NCBI GenBank assembly: GCA_029338675.1
Contig: JAQYAV010000163.1
Coordinates: 1 to 49,590, forward strand
Length of the DNA: 49,590 nt
Source of the DNA: Lachnospiraceae bacterium
Lineage (GTDB): Bacteria > Bacillota > Clostridia > Lachnospirales > Lachnospiraceae
Direction: 5' to 3'
Of the stretch, positions 19,629-28,991 are shown one piece after another. Within the stretch, counting starts at the first letter, position 1, and each line of letters begins with the position of its first letter. The notes under the pieces were generated by a model that ran no database searches, was not told where the DNA came from, and saw nothing but the letters and a program-made list of their open reading frames with translations. Position numbers and translations under genes: made by a program.

Positions 19629-21641
19629 ATGTTTAACAACAGAATATGGAAGCGCCATTCTTTTTTTGGAAGGATGATTAGCTTTCTTGTCTGTGCGTGT
19701 ATTGTTGCAGGAAGTATTTTGTTTTTACCAGCAGATAATGTAGTTAATGCAGCATCTAATCCTGTACAGGCACATGGCAGATTGTCTGTATCAGGAACAC
19801 AGTTAGTAGATAAGACAGGTAAAGCATATCAGTTAAGAGGTATTAGCACTCATGGTTTGCAATGGTTTGGTCAATATAATAATAAGGCTGCCTATAAAAC
19901 TCTTCGAGATGATTGGGGTGCTAACTGTATTAGACTTGCTATGTATTCAGATGCAGGTGGATATGTTAGTGATCCTTCTGGTATGAAGCAGAAGGTCATT
20001 GATGGTGTTAATTACGCAACAGAGCTTGGGATGTACGTGATAATTGATTGGCATATTTTAAGTGATGGCAATCCAAACCAGCATAGAAATGAGGCAAGAG
20101 AATTCTTTAGAGATATGTCTAATAGATATAAGAATCATTCTAATGTAATCTATGAGATATGTAACGAGCCAAATGGATGTAGTTGGGGAGACATTAAGTC
20201 TTATGCAGAGGATATTATTGGTGTTATTAGATCCAATGATAAAAATGCTATTATTATTGTAGGAACACCAACCTGGTCACAGTTAGGAAGTCAGGGTCAT
20301 ACTTATGAACCAGCTGATGATCCTATAAGAGGATATAGTAATTTAATGTATGCATTTCATTTTTATGCATCGGATTCTAGCCATAATCAATGGATAAAGA
20401 ATAAGATTCCAACAGCAATAAGCAAGGGCTTACCAGTATTTGTTTCAGAATTCGGTTTATCTGAAGCAAGTGGTGATGGTAATGTTGACCTTGGCAAGGC
20501 TAAGGAATGGCTTCAGATGTGTGATAATAACAAGGTTAGTTATTGTGCATGGAGCCTTTGCAATAAGGGTGAATCATCAGCTTTGATTAGTTCAGGCTGT
20601 AGCAAGTTAAGTGGTTGGTCAGAACAAGAATTATCTAAAGCAGGTAAATTTATTAGAGATTGGTATAGATCAAAGAAATCTACAGATAACGTTGACGATA
20701 CCCCTAAGATAAAAAATCAGGCTAAGGATGTTATACTTAAGTATAAAACACATGTGCAGACTTTTGGATGGCAGGAATACGTTACTGCACCACAGATGAG
20801 TGGAACAAGTGGTTTATCTAAGCGTCTTGAAGGAATATGTATTAAGATTGAGGGTAATCCTAACTTAGGAATAACATATAAGACACATGTACAAACTTAC
20901 GGTTGGCAAGATTGGAAGTCTGATGGTGATATGAGTGGAACAAGTAGACAGTCAAAAAGACTTGAAGCCATTTGTATTAAGCTAACAGGTAAAGACAAAG
21001 ACAAATATGATGTGTATTATCGAGTTCATGCCCAGACATATGGTTGGATGGGATGGGCTAAGAATGGTCAGATTGCTGGAACAGAACGTATGTCTAAACG
21101 ATTAGAGGCAATTAACATAGTAGTTGTTAAGAAGGGAATGAACCCAGGAGTAAGCACATATAAATCACATGTAAGTCCAACATCTGGAAATATTAATTAC
21201 AGAACACATGTACAGACTTACGGCTGGCAGAAATGGGTATCAGATAGTGATTTAAGTGGGACAACTCTTAAAAGCAAACGTCTTGAGGGAATAGAAATCA
21301 GATTAGGAGATAATATTTCCGGAGGAATAAAATATAAAACTCATGTTCAATCGTATGGATGGCAAGATTGGAAAACAAATGGAGACATGAGTGGAACACA
21401 AGGTAAGGCGAAGCGTCTAGAGGCAATTTGTATTAAGCTCACAGGTCAGGCTGAGAAGCAGTATGATATTTATTATCAGGTTCATGTTCAAAGCTATGGT
21501 TGGCTAGATTGGGCTAAGAATGGCCAGATGTCAGGTACATCAGGTTTATATAAGAGGCTTGAGGCAATTAGAATTGTATTAGTACCAAAGGGTGGAAAAG
21601 CTCCTGGTAAAACAACAAGACCTTCTATTGCTGTGGAATAA
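19629..21641 (+). CDS. Secreted GH5 endoglucanase with six ChW repeats
   Basis: Predicted to cleave beta-1,4-glucan outside the cell. The 670-residue protein has a long signal peptide (basic start, hydrophobic 16-34, likely cut after VNA at 41), then a GH5 catalytic domain (about 45-348), subfamily-2-like. Acid/base Glu180 is in EICNEPNG and nucleophile Glu274 is in FVSEFG; WHILSDG and HFYAS are typical. A short linker leads to six ChW repeats (about 371-656), grouped as repeats 1-3, a linker, then repeats 4-6. No dockerin, CBM or sortase motif is visible, so attachment may depend on the ChW region. GGGGGT lies 10 nt before the ATG. It is followed by two genes with the same tail. Confidence 0.93.
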   Translation: MFNNRIWKRHSFFGRMISFLVCACIVAGSILFLPADNVVNAASNPVQAHGRLSVSGTQLVDKTGKAYQLRGISTHGLQWFGQYNNKAAYKTLRDDWGANCIRLAMYSDAGGYVSDPSGMKQKVIDGVNYATELGMYVIIDWHILSDGNPNQHRNEAREFFRDMSNRYKNHSNVIYEICNEPNGCSWGDIKSYAEDIIGVIRSNDKNAIIIVGTPTWSQLGSQGHTYEPADDPIRGYSNLMYAFHFYASDSSHNQWIKNKIPTAISKGLPVFVSEFGLSEASGDGNVDLGKAKEWLQMCDNNKVSYCAWSLCNKGESSALISSGCSKLSGWSEQELSKAGKFIRDWYRSKKSTDNVDDTPKIKNQAKDVILKYKTHVQTFGWQEYVTAPQMSGTSGLSKRLEGICIKIEGNPNLGITYKTHVQTYGWQDWKSDGDMSGTSRQSKRLEAICIKLTGKDKDKYDVYYRVHAQTYGWMGWAKNGQIAGTERMSKRLEAINIVVVKKGMNPGVSTYKSHVSPTSGNINYRTHVQTYGWQKWVSDSDLSGTTLKSKRLEGIEIRLGDNISGGIKYKTHVQSYGWQDWKTNGDMSGTQGKAKRLEAICIKLTGQAEKQYDIYYQVHVQSYGWLDWAKNGQMSGTSGLYKRLEAIRIVLVPKGGKAPGKTTRPSIAVE

Positions 21642-21766
21642 CGCCGATAATACTTTAAATAATTTATAGAAACATTTGATATAGGATGTGAGGGTAAAAA
21701 CTTGCATTTATATATAACATTATCGCTATAAGATAATATAGTGAGAAAATAATATGGAGGTGTGTT

Positions 21767-23866
21767 ATGAAAATAACAAAATTATTTTTCAAAAAGTTTG
21801 CCAGTATAGTAGCAGGTACGGCAATGGTTGCAGTTTTAGCTACTCCTGCTAATATGCCAGTGGCTTTCGCTGCTGAAGATAGCAATGAGTCAATTGAATT
21901 AGAAGCAATATACAATGAAGGCTTGTTTGACTCTTATGAGGAAGCTGTTGCGGCAACAAAAGAGATTGATGCAGAAAATATTGCTGCAGACAAGAAGGAA
22001 GGGTATCTTAATGACGCAGGAGAGGTTGTAGATATCCCTAAGTATACTAATGCTACACAGGCAACAGATTTTATCAGAAAATGTATGGTTGAGAGAAGAT
22101 CTTCAATCCAATTTCAGCTTAAGTCTTCAGCAACAAATAAGTCTGCAGCAAGTAAAGAAGTAAAAAATCTAATTTATGGGGCATTTAATGAAACTCCTAA
22201 TTCATACGAAGGAGATTATTTGAAGTGGCATTTTGCTGGTTACTCTGGATCTGTTTACTATTTACGCCAAAGAACTTCTAATGGTTACGCATTTACTGGA
22301 TATAATGAGTATAGAATTAATATGAAATATTTGTCTTCGCAGTATAGAGAAGCCAAAGTAACTAAGAAGATTGAAAGCCTAATGAAAACTTCATTTAAGG
22401 ATTGGAATAAGCATACTGATTACTATAATACTCTTCAGGCATATAACTGGATATGCGATAACTTCGCTTATGATTATTCAACAACTAATGAAGATCATTC
22501 TGCAGCAGGTGGATTCTTATATGGAAAGACAGTATGTCAGGGTTATGCAACTGGTATGTATAGACTCCTTAAAGAAATGGCTGTTCCAGTAAGAATGGTA
22601 TCAAGCAAAGTTCACGGTTGGAACATTGTTAAGATTGGTGGTAAGTACTACAATGTAGATGCTACTTGGGGAGATACAATTAACAATAAAAATAATAAAA
22701 ACGATGCAGCATTTAGAAAGAGCTTCTTCTTAAGAACAGATAAGAATATTACATTCATGGATAAAGGTGAAAATGTGGGCTCACATACACGTTATAACGC
22801 AAACGGTTGGGATTGCTCTTCAAGTTCATACTATAAGCAACATCCTATGGCAACTGCTGATTATGTGGCTCCAAGTAATTACAAGAATACAATTTCAACA
22901 CCAAATGTTGGCATAGAATATAAAACTCAGATTCAGACTTATGGTTGGGAAAAAACATATAGAAAAAATGGTGCAACAAGTGGTACACAGGGAAAAGCAA
23001 AGAGACTTGAAACAATTAAGATACGATTAACTAATAAAGGAAACTTAGATTTAGGAATAGAATATAAGACTCATATACAGTCTTATGGCTGGGAAACTAA
23101 GTGGGCTAGAGATGATCAACAAAGTGGTACAGTTCGTCAGTCAAAGAGACTTGAAGCTATTATGATTAGACTTTATGGTTCGGATGCTGCAATGTATGAT
23201 GTATATTACAGAGTACATGCACAGACTTATGGCTGGCTTGGTTGGGCTAAGAATGGTGAGTGTGCTGGTACAGCAGGCCAGTCAAAGAGACTCGAAGGAA
23301 TTCAGATTAAGATTGTTAAGAAGGGTGCTGGAGCACCTGCTGGAACTCAAGGATATTCTTATATAGATTATGGTAAGACTTCTCAGGAGAACGATGCATT
23401 CTCTGGAATGATTAATTATAAGACTCATGTTCAGACATATGGTTGGCAGAATTATGTATCTGATGGAAGCTTAAGTGGTACTTATGGTGAAAGCAAGAGA
23501 CTTGAGGCTATTAGAATTTACTTGGGTGAATTTGGTGTAAGTGGTTCTGTTCAGTATAGAACACACGTACAAAAGTATGGATGGATGCCATGGAAGAATG
23601 AAGGTTCTTTAAGTGGTACAAGTAATGAAAGTAAGAGACTTGAAGCAATTGAGATACGACTTACTGGAGATGTTTCAAAACAGTACGATGTATATTACAG
23701 AGTACACGCACAGACTTATGGTTGGCTTGGTTGGGCTAAGAATGGTCAAACAGCAGGTACAGCTAAACTTTCTAAGAGACTTGAAGGAATTCAGATTGTT
23801 CTTGTAAAGAAGAATGCTGGTCCTCCAACTGTAAGCACTGCTAAATCTTTTATTAAAGGTAGATAA
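21767..23866 (+). CDS. Secreted transglutaminase-fold protein with six ChW repeats
   Basis: A 699-residue exported protein: signal peptide (about 1-36, cut near AFA-AED), an N-terminal region of unknown role (40-215), a transglutaminase-like/papain-fold domain (about 216-305) and six ChW repeats (about 382-690). The catalytic triad is present: Cys257 in TVCQGYA, His283 in KVHGWNIV, Asp298 in NVDATW. In clostridial surface proteins such domains are thought to act as peptidases or cross-linkers of wall or extracellular proteins. The ChW region has the same two-cassette layout as the upstream cellulase. ATGGAGGTGTG precedes the ATG. A strong terminator follows. Confidence 0.88.
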   Translation: MKITKLFFKKFASIVAGTAMVAVLATPANMPVAFAAEDSNESIELEAIYNEGLFDSYEEAVAATKEIDAENIAADKKEGYLNDAGEVVDIPKYTNATQATDFIRKCMVERRSSIQFQLKSSATNKSAASKEVKNLIYGAFNETPNSYEGDYLKWHFAGYSGSVYYLRQRTSNGYAFTGYNEYRINMKYLSSQYREAKVTKKIESLMKTSFKDWNKHTDYYNTLQAYNWICDNFAYDYSTTNEDHSAAGGFLYGKTVCQGYATGMYRLLKEMAVPVRMVSSKVHGWNIVKIGGKYYNVDATWGDTINNKNNKNDAAFRKSFFLRTDKNITFMDKGENVGSHTRYNANGWDCSSSSYYKQHPMATADYVAPSNYKNTISTPNVGIEYKTQIQTYGWEKTYRKNGATSGTQGKAKRLETIKIRLTNKGNLDLGIEYKTHIQSYGWETKWARDDQQSGTVRQSKRLEAIMIRLYGSDAAMYDVYYRVHAQTYGWLGWAKNGECAGTAGQSKRLEGIQIKIVKKGAGAPAGTQGYSYIDYGKTSQENDAFSGMINYKTHVQTYGWQNYVSDGSLSGTYGESKRLEAIRIYLGEFGVSGSVQYRTHVQKYGWMPWKNEGSLSGTSNESKRLEAIEIRLTGDVSKQYDVYYRVHAQTYGWLGWAKNGQTAGTAKLSKRLEGIQIVLVKKNAGPPTVSTAKSFIKGR

Positions 23867-23883
23867 ATAATTAACTATTTTAA

Positions 23884-23930
23884 AGGCTACATTTCATTGA
23901 TGCTTGCGTCGGTGAAATGTAGCCTTTTTG
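23884..23930 (+). terminator. Terminator after the first transglutaminase-fold gene
   Basis: Perfect 13-bp stem AGGCTACATTTCA / TGAAATGTAGCCT followed by TTTTTG. It separates the second and third ChW genes into different transcripts. Confidence 0.92.
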
Positions 23931-24022
23931 TATATGAATATTTTGGCGTATCAATATTCTTGTTACACAAAGTTGTTGGAAAAGCATGAATATAGATCAA
24001 AAATATATAATGTATTAAATAT

Positions 24023-24051
24023 TTGACGTTACATTGTAAAAAATATATATT
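24023..24051 (+). promoter_or_regulatory. Promoter of the third ChW gene
   Basis: TTGACG (24023-24028), a 17-nt spacer and TATATT (24046-24051). Predicted start near 24058, giving a leader of about 145 nt. Confidence 0.6.
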
Positions 24052-24064
24052 ATATTCATACTGA

Positions 24065-24096
24065 CCTTCTTGCATATTTTGCAGGGAGGTTTTATT
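24065..24096 (+). promoter_or_regulatory. Leader hairpin followed by T-rich run (possible attenuator)
   Basis: Ten base pairs (24065-24074 with 24080-24089; two G-U pairs), 5-nt loop, then TTTTATTATTAG. It lies only a few bases after the predicted transcription start, so it could end transcription early or protect the 5' end. No competing antiterminator was found by eye. Confidence 0.4.
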
Positions 24097-24201
24097 ATTA
24101 GTTTTATTAATGTGTAGTTTGGTATTGCAAATTATTATGTTGATTAATGGATTTGCATGAATATAATATATATTTGATTAAAGCGTGAAAGGGAAAATTA
24201 A

Positions 24202-26277
24202 ATGACACTGAAAAAAATATTTGTAGTGGGATTAACTTGTTGCATAATAGGAAATGCTGTTAGTGTAAATGAAGTAAATTGTTATGCAGAGAATAATACC
24301 CAAATAGAAGAAACGTACAATAGTGAACAGGAGGCATCTTCATCAGATGCGGAAGTAATAAAAGAAGAAAACAACAATGGTGAAAAGGTTGTTGAAGAAG
24401 ACAACAATGATGAAGTGATTATTGAAGATGACTACATAGTTGACCAAAATGATTTTTACAATGAAGATATTGAGAATGAATACCAGATTAGTCAGATTAA
24501 TGCTCGATATAATTCTTTAGAGGATGAAAAGAAAAATGTAATAGATGCAGAAAAGCTAGTTACATTTAATACAGTAGAGGAAGCAGGAATCTATTACAGA
24601 GACAATTTGGTTAAACGTAAGGAACATATATCTTTTGTATTAAAAGAGAGTAAGGTTGAGGATTTATATGATTATCACGTTACTCAGTATGCTAAGATGA
24701 AGGATATTGCCTTTGAGGAAACAGATAAGCCTTATGAAGGAGATTATTTATATTGGAATTGGCGTAATACATGGCATAAGGTGATTCAGATTGAAGGTGG
24801 AGTAGTGTTTGAATTTGAATGCTTTTATCAATCTACCTACGAAGAAGAATTATATGTGAATAAGGTTGTAAATAATCTGCTTGAAGAGGAATTTGAAGGT
24901 TGGCAGAAACGCTCGGATTATGAAAATGTAAAGGATATATATGATTGGATAACATACACGTATAAATATGTAGCTAGTTCAAAAAGTCATTCGTCTTATA
25001 GTGGTTTTGTTAACCATGAAACAGTTTGTCAGGGGTATTCAACATCATTTTATAGATTAGCTAGAGAAATGGGCATTTCTACAAGGGTAATAGCTAGTGA
25101 AGTACATGGTTGGAATATAGTTAAATTAGGAGATAAATATTATAATCTTGATACAACATGGGATGCAGAAAAAAGAGCTGATGAATGGGAGAATTTCTTG
25201 AAGTGTGAGGCTAATTTTGATCCAGAGGGTTCACATGTTAGAAAAAGCAGATATAAAACAGCAGCATTTAATAAGAAATATCCAATGAGCAATAAAGATT
25301 ATGCGGTAAATAAAAATGATTATGGCTTTGAGATAATGTGTATTTCGCATATTCAAAGCTACGGATGGACTTCTGCGGTTGGAGAAAACAGTATTGTTGG
25401 AACAGTTGGTGAGAGTAAAAGACTTGAGGCAGTTAAGTTCTATATTAAAAAGAATTCACGATATGATCTAGGGATTGAGTATATGGGACATACTCAAAGC
25501 TATGGTTGGAATAGAGATTGGCTTGGAGAAAATAAACTTTGTGGAAGTGAAAGAAAGAGCAAACGATTAGAAGCAATTGGTTTAAGACTTACAGGTGCCG
25601 ATAGTAGTAAATATGATTTGTACTATCAGGCCCATGTTCAAAGCTATGGATGGTTAGGCTGGGCTAAAAATGGTGAGTTTGTTGGTTCAGAAGGAATGGC
25701 TAAAAGAATGGAAGCAATTAGATTTGTTGTGCTTCCAAAGGGAGAAAAGCCTGAAGGCTTAATAGGTTATAGCTTTATTCAAAACGGTAAAAGATCTAAT
25801 TCAGACGATACGTCTCTTGGGAATGTATATTATAAGACGCATATTCAGTCCTACGATTGGCAAAAATATGTACATGATGGATCTATAAGCGGAACATTTG
25901 ATGAAGCTAAACGTATGGAGGCAATTTCTATCGGTATTAACACTAATGAAAAGGACAGTGGAATTACATATAAATCTCATATTCAAGGAATTGGTTGGGA
26001 GAATAAATGGCATGATGACGGCGAAATCAGTGGAACAACTGGTAAAGGAAAACGTTTGGAGGCTATTAGAATTAGCCTATATGGAAGCATAGAAAAGAAT
26101 TATGATATATACTATAGAGTTCACGCACAGACATATGGATGGATGGGATGGGCAAAAAATGGCGAACCAGCGGGAACAGAAGGTATGGCTAAACGACTTG
26201 AAGCAATACAGATTGTAATACTTCCAAAGGGAATGACACCATCTGAGGGCATGAATAAAATGGCATTTATTAAGTAA
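24202..26277 (+). CDS. Second secreted transglutaminase-fold protein with six ChW repeats
   Basis: Paralogue of the preceding gene, 691 residues. Signal peptide about 1-29 (NCYA-ENN), an acidic Asn/Glu-rich segment (30-98), a middle region, a transglutaminase-like domain (about 235-325), and six ChW repeats (about 383-680). The triad is kept: Cys276 in TVCQGYS, His302 in EVHGWNIV, Asp317 in NLDTTW. The repeats are more divergent than in its neighbours: GW is DW in repeat 4, and repeat 5 has IQGIGW. Codon choice is more AT-rich. The ribosome site AAAGGG is modest. It is controlled by its own promoter after the terminator at 23884. Confidence 0.87.
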   Translation: MTLKKIFVVGLTCCIIGNAVSVNEVNCYAENNTQIEETYNSEQEASSSDAEVIKEENNNGEKVVEEDNNDEVIIEDDYIVDQNDFYNEDIENEYQISQINARYNSLEDEKKNVIDAEKLVTFNTVEEAGIYYRDNLVKRKEHISFVLKESKVEDLYDYHVTQYAKMKDIAFEETDKPYEGDYLYWNWRNTWHKVIQIEGGVVFEFECFYQSTYEEELYVNKVVNNLLEEEFEGWQKRSDYENVKDIYDWITYTYKYVASSKSHSSYSGFVNHETVCQGYSTSFYRLAREMGISTRVIASEVHGWNIVKLGDKYYNLDTTWDAEKRADEWENFLKCEANFDPEGSHVRKSRYKTAAFNKKYPMSNKDYAVNKNDYGFEIMCISHIQSYGWTSAVGENSIVGTVGESKRLEAVKFYIKKNSRYDLGIEYMGHTQSYGWNRDWLGENKLCGSERKSKRLEAIGLRLTGADSSKYDLYYQAHVQSYGWLGWAKNGEFVGSEGMAKRMEAIRFVVLPKGEKPEGLIGYSFIQNGKRSNSDDTSLGNVYYKTHIQSYDWQKYVHDGSISGTFDEAKRMEAISIGINTNEKDSGITYKSHIQGIGWENKWHDDGEISGTTGKGKRLEAIRISLYGSIEKNYDIYYRVHAQTYGWMGWAKNGEPAGTEGMAKRLEAIQIVILPKGMTPSEGMNKMAFIK

Positions 26278-26365: not shown

Positions 26366-27694
26366 ATGAAGGAAAAGAAACAAGTTATAAGGATAGTGCT
26401 TTCTATTATTACATTTACAGTTGTACTTGTGTACATAGTAAATCATACAAGTATGATAGCAGGGATATTCGGCAAAATAGTATCTATGCTAGTCCCTTTT
26501 TTGCTAGGTGGAGCAATAGCATTTGTTATTAATATTCCTATGAAAAGTATTGAAGATAAATTCTTCAAGGACGAAACAAAGGGAATATATAAATACAAAA
26601 GAGCTATAAGTATGATAGTTGCTTATATTTTAGCATTTTTGGTGGTTGGCTTAGTTGTATTTGTTGTAGTCCCAGAGCTTGCGGCTACTGTTACCAAGAT
26701 TAAGGATAAGCTTCCTGAAATGTTTGATAAAGGTAGGGCAATCTTTATTAAATATACAGAAAAGTACCCTTCTATTAAGAAGGAGATTCAGGAAATTAAT
26801 GTTAATTGGAATGAAGTAGGCAATATATTTAAGAATAATAGCTCCACAATAATAGGAAAGACTGTATCAGTATTTTCATCGATTATTAGTGCTATAACTA
26901 ATACATTGGTTGGAATTGTTTTCTCGGCTTACATCCTTTCGCAAAAGGAACATTTGGCAAAACAGTTCAAGATGATTATATATGCTTTATTTAAAGAGAA
27001 TACTGCAGATGAGATGATGGTATTTGGAAAAATTGCCAATTCTACATTCTCCAAATTCTTTGCATGTCAGTTTAGAGAAGGTATAATTCTTGGATCTATG
27101 TTTATGGTTGCTATGGGAATTCTTCGTATGCCATTTGTCCTTACAATTGGTGTGTTAATCGCTTTTACAGCGCTTATTCCTGTATTTGGTGCATTTATTG
27201 GTTTGCTTATTGCAATATTCTTATTATTAGTTGAAGCGCCTAATATGGTTGTGTGGTTTATAGTATTGTTCTTTGTATTACAGTTTATAGAAAACTACTT
27301 TATATACCCTAAGCTTGTTGGTGGAGATATTGGATTATCGGCAATATGGGTTTTACTTGCGGTAATTGTAGGTGGCGACCTGATGGGTGTGATTGGAATG
27401 TTTGTGTTTATTCCACTTGTTTCAGTATTTTATGCTTACGGAAGAAGTATTGTATATAGAAAACTCAAGAAAAAAAGTATAAATGTAGAGGACAAGCAGG
27501 CACCAGAGGATGTTGCTCCGCTAATGGAGGGCAGAAGAAGACTCTTCACCCCTAAAAACAAGACGGGCAAGTCAAGTACAGCCAACAAGGCTTCAACAAA
27601 AAAAGATGAAAATTATACAGGTAATAATAAAATCTCAAGTGAAAAACAAACACCTGTAGAAGATACAAAAAAAGGAGGCAATGGCAATGTATAA
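26366..27694 (+). CDS. AI-2E family transporter (UPF0118)
   Basis: A 442-residue membrane protein of the AI-2 exporter/permease family, whose members have been linked to AI-2 export or Na+/H+ antiport; the substrate cannot be read from sequence. About eight helices: two near 10-50, one at 78-100, one near 180-200, and a cluster from 245 to 375. The family segment [12 protein letters not shown] and the final helices ([20 protein letters not shown]) are present. The last 65 residues are a hydrophilic Lys/Asn/Thr-rich tail, longer than usual. The 3' end overlaps the next gene by 8 bp. Confidence 0.85.
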
Positions 27695-28991
27695 AAGCAT
27701 TTCTGGATTATTATTATATCGTGAGTTAGGTGAGGATAGCATATTATACAAGTTGTCAGACATATTTAAGGATATGGATTATGAGCTTGCAAGTGTTGAG
27801 GAATTAAGAGGCCGAGTGTTTACTCAGGTTAAGAGATTACTTGATTTGGCTACAAGCTATGGATTTAACAAGAATTTATGGCATGATTATCTTGCATTTT
27901 TGCTTATTACAAATGAAAATTCATTTACACTTACATGTGAAAAAGTTGGGGCTGGAGATGGCTCTGTAAATAGCTTTGCTAAAAATGATTACCAGATATT
28001 TATGGATTTGTTTTCTTTTGATTTTAGCAAAATAGAAGAAAAATTAGGAATTGATTGTTTTACAACAATTACACATTATAAGTCACTTCCTAAAAAGGAA
28101 CAGATGTATAACCAAAATGTTAGTGAAAAGGTAAGATATATCAGTGACAGCATAAGTGAGGCGAATAATGTTGATAAAGTGTTTGATATTATGACTGGCT
28201 TCTATAAGCAATATGGTGTGGGAATGTTCGGTCTTAATAAAGCATTTAGAATTGTTCACGAAGAAGGAAAGTCTATTGAATTTGTCCCAATTAATAATAC
28301 TGACAAGGTTATGTTAGATGATTTGGTTGGATATGAGATTCAGAAGAAAAAGCTTACTGATAATACATCAGCTTTTGTTAGAGGTGATAAGGCAAATAAT
28401 GCCCTTTTGTTTGGTGATAGTGGAACTGGTAAATCTACTAGCATTAAGGCGATAATTAATGAATACTATGAGCAGGGTCTTAGAGTAATTGAAATCTACA
28501 AGCATCAATTTAAGGATCTTTCTGCTGTGATTTCACATATCAAAAATCGAAACTACAAATTCATTATATACATGGATGATTTATCATTTGAGGAATTCGA
28601 GATTGAATATAAATATTTGAAGGCGGTAATCGAAGGTGGTTTAGAGATTAAACCTGACAATGTATTAATATATGCTACTTCAAATAGAAGACATCTTATT
28701 AAAGAAACATGGAATGACAGATCAGACTATAATGTTGAAATGCATCAGTCAGATACAATGCAGGAGAAGCTTTCTCTTGTTAATAGATTCGGTGTTACAA
28801 TAAATTACTCAAAACCTACAAAGTTTGAGTTCAACAATATAGTAGTACAGCTTGCAAGAAGATATGATAAAATCACTTTGACAGATGAAGAACTTATTGC
28901 TGAAGCAAATAAATGGGAAATGGCACATGGTGGTGTTTCTGGTAGAACTGCTCAGCAGTTTATTAATTATTTGCTTGGAAAACAAGAGTAA
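27687..28991 (+). CDS. DUF815 family ATPase
   Basis: A 434-residue cytoplasmic P-loop protein of the DUF815 AAA+-like family, function unknown. Walker A is [17 protein letters not shown] (around residue 244) and Walker B is [12 protein letters not shown]; a sensor Asn lies in YATSNRRHL. The N-terminal 200 residues are helical. Start: ATG at 27687 is 8 nt after AGGAGG, while ATG at 27681 is only 2 nt away. It overlaps the transporter gene, so the two are translated together. It converges on the next gene with only 7 nt between stops and no visible terminator. Confidence 0.85.

Follow-up and report, generated by a model that had tools for sequence, protein, structure and literature searches.

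What do a cellulase and two transglutaminase-fold proteins, encoded side by side, have in common that would give all three the same ordered set of repeats at their ends? We analysed a stretch of 49,590 nucleotides from a Lachnospiraceae bacterium (contig JAQYAV010000163.1 of assembly GCA_029338675.1, positions 1 to 49,590; hereafter the window) in which three adjacent forward-strand genes encode proteins that end in six ChW (Clostridial hydrophobic W, PF07538) repeats, arranged as A-B-C, linker, A-B-C. This tail had been described in a reading made from the sequence alone (hereafter the sequence-only reading), and placement of the PF07538 repeats agrees with it. We propose that A-B-C constitutes one domain of about 140 residues, and that two such domains on a flexible linker most likely anchor each enzyme non-covalently to the bacterium's own wall.

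The proteins are a GH5 cellulase-family protein of 670 amino acids (19629-21641) and two transglutaminase-fold proteins, TG1 (699 amino acids; 21767-23866) and TG2 (691 amino acids; 24202-26277). All three are predicted to be secreted, with an N-terminal hydrophobic leader visible by eye. The six PF07538 stretches score 347.7 bits in the cellulase (E 2.2e-106), 308.8 in TG1 (E 3.3e-94) and 263.3 in TG2 (E 5.3e-80) against a Pfam gathering score of 22 bits, and all 18 repeats individually exceed the gathering cut-off. The cellulase triplets lie at 20727-21152 (A 20751-20855, B 20886-20990, C 21027-21131) and 21180-21605 (A 21207-21305, B 21342-21446, C 21483-21584). Those of TG1 lie at 22904-23338 (A 22928-23035, B 23072-23179, C 23216-23320) and 23399-23827 (A 23426-23524, B 23564-23668, C 23705-23809), and those of TG2 at 25321-25761 (A 25348-25443, B 25489-25596, C 25633-25725) and 25816-26247 (A 25840-25932, B 25978-26085, C 26122-26220). 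Steps between repeat starts are 45-48 residues from A to B and 47-48 from B to C, while the steps from C to the next A are 59, 69 and 69. As the sequence-only reading had stated, B runs into C through Y-D-(V/I/L)-Y-Y and the third repeat carries WAKNG, each in 6/6 triplets.

Clustering of the repeats by position rather than by protein had also been expected, and this was borne out for type C and in part for A and B. Mean identity between window repeats of different proteins is 0.557 for the same type versus 0.447 for different types, a gap reached by none of 1000 within-protein label shuffles, and the nearest neighbour in another protein is of the same type for 16/18 repeats. Over the 85 repeats of the genome the type effect is 0.060, and the largest shuffled value is 0.018. 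In a maximum-likelihood tree of the 18 window repeats, type C forms one clade (99/99); A needs three changes and B four, with the bootstrap not settled. The three labels together require four changes, compared with a shuffled mean of 8.9, and none of 200 shuffles was as low. Type models built with one protein left out at a time called C correctly in 27/28 repeats, B in 22/28 and A in 19/29. The repeat types are thus real, yet A and B are not cleanly separated, and assignment of A versus B from one repeat alone was rejected because these models fail to separate them.

A short GYSFI- or SFIK-like motif had been noted after most C repeats of the two transglutaminase-fold proteins. All four of their C repeats are indeed followed by GYSYI, SFIK, GYSFI or AFIK, and the corresponding regular expression matches neither cellulase stretch. 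The motif is not special to TG1 and TG2, however: the expression matches 127 of 299 distinct post-C stretches (versus 4.9% of shuffles) and 9 of 27 in the source genome, among them stretches of the amidase, GHL10 and YkuD proteins and of a third transglutaminase-fold protein. It was rejected as a part of the domain and is handled here as a linker motif, because the predicted local distance difference test (pLDDT) score falls to 59 there in a one-triplet model. By eye, the three window proteins terminate in SIAVE, SFIKGR and MAFIK.

Structure prediction of the cassette, which the sequence-only reading had proposed, was carried out with AlphaFold2. The second cellulase triplet (model of 21174-21638) was predicted with a mean pLDDT of 94.5 and a predicted template modelling score (pTM) of 0.88. 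The model contains six long strands, two per repeat (residues 7-13, 37-44, 51-58, 82-90, 97-105 and 129-138), and about 23 residues separate the two strands of each repeat; this loop region bears the conserved W and the G positions after it. Eight positions recur in all three repeats, each at least 80% conserved: Y9/Y54/Y101, H12/H57/H104, Q14/Q59/Q106, G17/G62/G109, W18/W63/W110, G29/G74/G121, R36/R81/R128 and E38/E83/E130. The six-strand body suggests pseudo-threefold symmetry. A model of the TG1 tail, which spans both triplets, has a pTM of 0.77 and contains two units, the second at residues 174-306, with a linker block at 161-170 of mean pLDDT 59; we read the modelled tail as two domains on a string. 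A beta-trefoil was considered because there are three repeats of about 47 residues. The triplet model had no clear match among solved structures in the libraries searched, which bears on the beta-trefoil neither way, and sequence relatives in the PDB were found neither with a single triplet at E ≤ 1 nor with a 95-row profile at E ≤ 10. In BFVD, 5 of the 512 matches reported for the triplet model had E ≤ 0.001, and three of these five are named endolysin, lysin or lysozyme.

Is the triplet order kept elsewhere in the genome? The assembly (2.85 Mb in 171 contigs) has 83 PF07538 matches, and 14 frames with at least three repeats were taken as the set for comparison, leaving out two stubs on contigs C41 and C83 and an edge frame of contig C105. 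Six repeats are present in twelve of the 14 and nine in another; the last breaks off at a contig end after A-B-C-A. The junction motif, which was formulated after seeing the window, precedes 28/28 third repeats and 0/57 first or second repeats of these frames. A fixed triplet order therefore holds in repeat number and junction motif in 14/14 frames; it is less regular in spacing, with the C-A step the longest in 8/14, and in the leave-one-protein-out type models, which recovered 6/14 whole frames. A first cassette could likewise be told from a second only in part (the nearest neighbour had the same position for 18/26 cassettes of the genome and 161/209 of the pooled cassettes), and no claim is made from this weak signal.

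The tail is combined with varied partners. A Pfam scan of the three window proteins and 9 of the other 11 frames found, in these nine, Amidase_3, a third transglutaminase-fold domain, GHL10, CAP, YkuD and, in a protein of 1732 amino acids, Big_2; ChW was the only Pfam family in three of the nine. The repeats are N-terminal in some frames of the genome and C-terminal in others. Because 14 frames carry it, including amidase, L,D-transpeptidase-fold and CAP proteins, the tail is, judged from these partners, a mark of a wider set of predicted surface proteins and not of a three-enzyme complex. A shared ligand had been imagined to hold the cellulase and its two neighbours together. A shared anchor would concentrate them, but a private complex of the three is less likely and is not indicated, because the anchor is also shared with eleven other ChW frames of the genome. 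The further statement that this occurs without dockerins or sortase applies to the three window proteins, in which Pfam finds neither a dockerin domain nor a sortase anchor domain at E ≤ 0.001. The genome as a whole has three dockerin matches (C74:11401-11565, C114:37310-37474 and C110:4693-4773, one of the three with an internal stop) and one sortase match (C52:80795-81310), so other attachment systems may coexist.

Some copies in this genome form a sub-family with two N-terminal triplets, namely loci L031 (contig C79), L032 (C111), L033 (C118), L038 (C38) and L042 (C105), of which L032 and L038 continue into a C-terminal part with no Pfam match. The C105 frame looks, by eye, like a repetition of the last part of the C79 frame. 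Several of the copies stop at contig edges and have identical stretches in common, so the assembly was probably broken at these repeats. The stubs (L043:1144-1335 on C41 and L044:1026-1247 on C83) are near-identical short frames on two contigs with only the C-repeat end and tail behind an unrelated start, and resemble remnants of genes or copies of a single remnant.

The ordered cassette was also sought in other genomes, in a sample of 79 named-genome and 14 viral loci. Of 99 complete frames with at least two repeats, 89 have a multiple of three by the single-repeat model; the counts are 2 repeats (1 frame), 3 (18), 5 (1), 6 (62), 7 (1), 8 (7) and 9 (9). In these 89 frames the junction motif stands before 166/169 third repeats and 1/338 first or second repeats, and median steps in the related loci are 47 residues for both A-B and B-C and 60 (range 48-93) for C-A. 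A triplet profile of 143 positions, built from 95 sequences, found 247 full and 12 partial triplets over all frames of the loci, cut and duplicate frames included. Eight of the ten complete frames with odd counts proved to be whole triplets with one weak repeat, among them L107, which matches from profile position 14. In one Hespellia metagenome-assembled genome (L134:3833-5165) a ChW gene appears split into two overlapping frames.

The phase extends to distant bacteria. Two loci from a distant family of the same phylum, L083 and L094, have units of 148-151 residues that are again whole triplets, although the single-repeat model recognises only one repeat in each. Both are very large frames (L083:1-3102, 2370 amino acids; L094:1-2025, 1669 amino acids) with three and four tandem triplets in the part covered. 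Beyond its triplets, the L083 sequence looks by eye like YD/RHS repeats, which would be an uncommon partner. In a 178-residue Streptomyces plasmid protein and a 183-residue Nostoc plasmid protein, a leader (by eye) is followed by exactly one triplet, and the chain ends a few residues past the last repeat. Occurrence is patchy, at 11/60 sampled genomes of the family and 7/398 of the phylum (with the source genome counted in both). The fixed phase across genera and phyla, the two single-triplet proteins and the confident one-domain model together give good support to the suggestion of the sequence-only reading that the cassette is a unit of folding or binding.

What the triplet binds is addressed by its likeness to lysins of phages of lactic acid bacteria. 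In the Lactobacillus phage A2 endolysin an Amidase_2 domain is accompanied by a C-terminal region without a Pfam match at E 1. Aligned to the triplet profile with hhalign, this region gave a probability of 95.7 (E 9e-9). The reversed sequence reached 0.1 and 60 shuffles at most 4.4; a profile of its relatives, six sequences deep, gave 94.9. Relatives of the A2 region occur in 51 phage records, including CL1 and AM12. Lc-LysBD, which binds the cell wall and belongs to endolysins of L. casei and lactococcal phages (A2, PL-1 and 949), resembles the window tails in being one C-terminal three-repeat region, carried on a peptidoglycan amidase, that aligns to the triplet profile; it differs in that the A2 lysin is unmatched by Pfam ChW at E 1 and many signature residues are replaced. 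This likeness argues for shared ancestry of Lc-LysBD and the ChW triplet, and we infer that the two may form one triplet-built superfamily. Lc-LysBD is described as binding specifically to peptidoglycan with amidated D-Asp cross-bridges, a ligand reported for L. casei and not known from the source species, and as having no identity to known wall-binding domains according to that review (PMC4033162). The CL1 domain, labelled ChW, binds many lactic acid bacteria (PMC10610939), and the AM12 domain, also labelled ChW, displays proteins on Lactococcus (PMC6700490); these lysin domains bind cells or peptidoglycan, and cells are bound when the domains are added from outside (PMC10610939, PMC6700490).

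On this basis we propose the following sequence of events. Each enzyme would be secreted, and its two triplets would then hold it on the wall. The three repeats of a triplet would fold together into one body of six long strands, whose three loops may form ligand sites, and the duplicated triplet would serve avidity. The ligand would be the bacterium's own wall, either peptidoglycan or a polymer on it. An anchored cellulase would sit at the cell surface, where its products could be taken up. Among 49 frames hand-picked from relatives, Amidase_3, GH25 and YkuD occur three times each and Amidase_2 and Glucosaminidase twice each. Because peptidoglycan enzymes carry the same tail, the wall is the most economical ligand, and in our analysis it is favoured over plant fibre or a scaffold.

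Plant fibre deserves consideration since the GH5 partner has no other binding module at E ≤ 0.001, and three repeats with conserved tryptophans could bind glycans; the triplet would then be a carbohydrate-binding module that brings the cellulase and the adjacent proteins to their substrate. The tail is also present on Amidase_3, YkuD, GH25, Amidase_2 and Glucosaminidase proteins, however, and the best BFVD matches are named phage lysins, for which binding to plant fibre would serve no obvious purpose, and we consider this function quite improbable. The portability of the tail among many unrelated catalytic domains in one genome, including the 1732-residue Big_2 protein, could instead indicate a docking module for a surface protein scaffold, in a cellulosome-like arrangement without dockerins, and ChW was first proposed for anchoring or protein-protein contact (PMC5817068). 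We regard such docking as unlikely, in that phage lysins, which act on walls, carry the triplet, and the relatives from lactic acid bacteria bind cells from outside (PMC6700490, PMC10610939).

It is also conceivable, if very hard to credit, that the repeats are independent binding beads whose fixed order is only a trace of array duplication. Cassettes within one protein are more alike (0.596) than those between proteins (0.52-0.56), which indicates that duplication by whole triplets happens, and A and B are poorly separated in the tree. Against beads stand the single-triplet proteins of Streptomyces and Nostoc, the one-domain structure model and the small number of repeat counts off multiples of three.

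Several points weigh against a wall-anchoring triplet domain. Loci were collected with a peptide pattern for type C, which biases the sample towards frames that contain such a repeat; for this reason three further genomes were checked with the Pfam single-repeat model, counting by hand and excluding one broken gene of G043 and two short frames of G281. Exact multiples of three were found in 12/15 frames of G281, 7/8 of G032 and 3/3 of G043, or 22/26 full-size frames in total, and the remaining four (5, 8, 8 and 11 repeats) resolve to whole triplets. Two of the 99 complete frames (L134 and L123) keep an odd number under the triplet profile. In 6/14 frames of the source genome the C-A step is 48-50 residues, so that spacing alone does not mark triplets and was rejected as their sole mark. 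The alignment of the A2 region spans 109 columns and does not reach the end of repeat C. The cross-link in Lachnospiraceae is expected to differ from the amidated D-Asp cross-bridge of lactic acid bacteria, so the ligand known there cannot simply be transferred to Lachnospiraceae ChW proteins. The tail is carried as well by subtilases, LRR_5 proteins and the GH5 enzyme, which are themselves no pointer to the wall, and binding data for any Lachnospiraceae ChW protein were not found in the literature searched. Finally, the AM12 anchor is described as absent from the wall fraction after lysozyme/mutanolysin digestion (PMC6700490), and it may thus bind another surface part.

Beyond wall anchoring by the window tails, a broader proposal is tentative, and we place it a little below an even chance. 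It holds that the triplet is a wall-binding domain of an unsolved pseudo-threefold fold with three equivalent loops, in which type C (WAKNG) is specialised, and that clostridial, actinobacterial and cyanobacterial ChW proteins and Lc-LysBD are one superfamily whose members read different wall features.

Outside the tails, each window protein has one other Pfam family at E ≤ 0.001, its catalytic domain, and nothing else; in particular, no Pfam CBM (carbohydrate-binding module) family is matched. The GH5 domain of the cellulase (PF00150; E 2.1e-66 for the protein) lies at 19806-20570 (E 2.3e-67). The transglutaminase-like cores (PF01841, E 6e-8 in each) comprise residues 214-299 of TG1 (22406-22663) and 236-317 of TG2 (24907-25152). 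The transglutaminase fold is expected to have Cys, His and Asp at set positions, and by eye these residues sit there in both proteins, which are predicted peptidase or cross-linking enzymes that may either cut or link. Since a terminator-like hairpin of 20 pairs followed by a T run (forward strand, 23883-23927; a consensus match only) sits between TG1 and TG2, TG2 may be transcribed apart from the first two genes. G281 is a congener in which relatives of the cellulase and of TG1 lie next to each other, with 64-69% and 36% identity to the window in the catalytic parts, respectively; after them comes a frame (L202:4390-5499) resembling by eye the DUF815 AAA protein of the window (27681-28991). 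At this place the window has two genes that G281 lacks there, namely the second transglutaminase-fold gene and one for an AI-2E-family transporter.

LysM, CW_binding_1 and 2 and SLH are non-covalent repeat anchors found on many enzymes and in this resemble the ChW tail, but none of them has a Pfam match in the window proteins at E ≤ 0.001. All 18 window repeats belong to the ChW family (Nolling 2001 and Sullivan 2007, as cited in PMC5817068). Pfam models this family as a single 35-residue repeat, whereas the present evidence points to the triplet as the domain, with a constant B-C junction and position-specific repeat types (clearly for C, partly for A and B). The repeats themselves, a role in anchoring or protein-protein contact and a grouping in triplets for surface contact (the last by Sullivan 2007) were suggested earlier, as recounted in PMC5817068. 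According to PMC8051824 (2021), what the family does is still not known, and in PMC8078820 ChW figures in a list of modelled repeat families, where the columns following its score hold dashes. A literature search for ChW together with AlphaFold and endolysin found nothing. Relative to the literature searched, this analysis adds a measurement of how regular the phase is, two proteins with a single triplet each, a confident model that has no clear counterpart among solved structures in the libraries searched, and a profile-based connection to a phage domain of lactic acid bacteria.

ChW proteins are a large, little characterised surface set in some gut bacteria. Treating the triplet as the domain guides construct boundaries, gives a reason why constructs of single repeats might not work and provides a candidate for structure determination. 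With the link to a phage lysin domain of known ligand class, the question of the ligand becomes open to direct testing; the tail might also be used to anchor displayed proteins.

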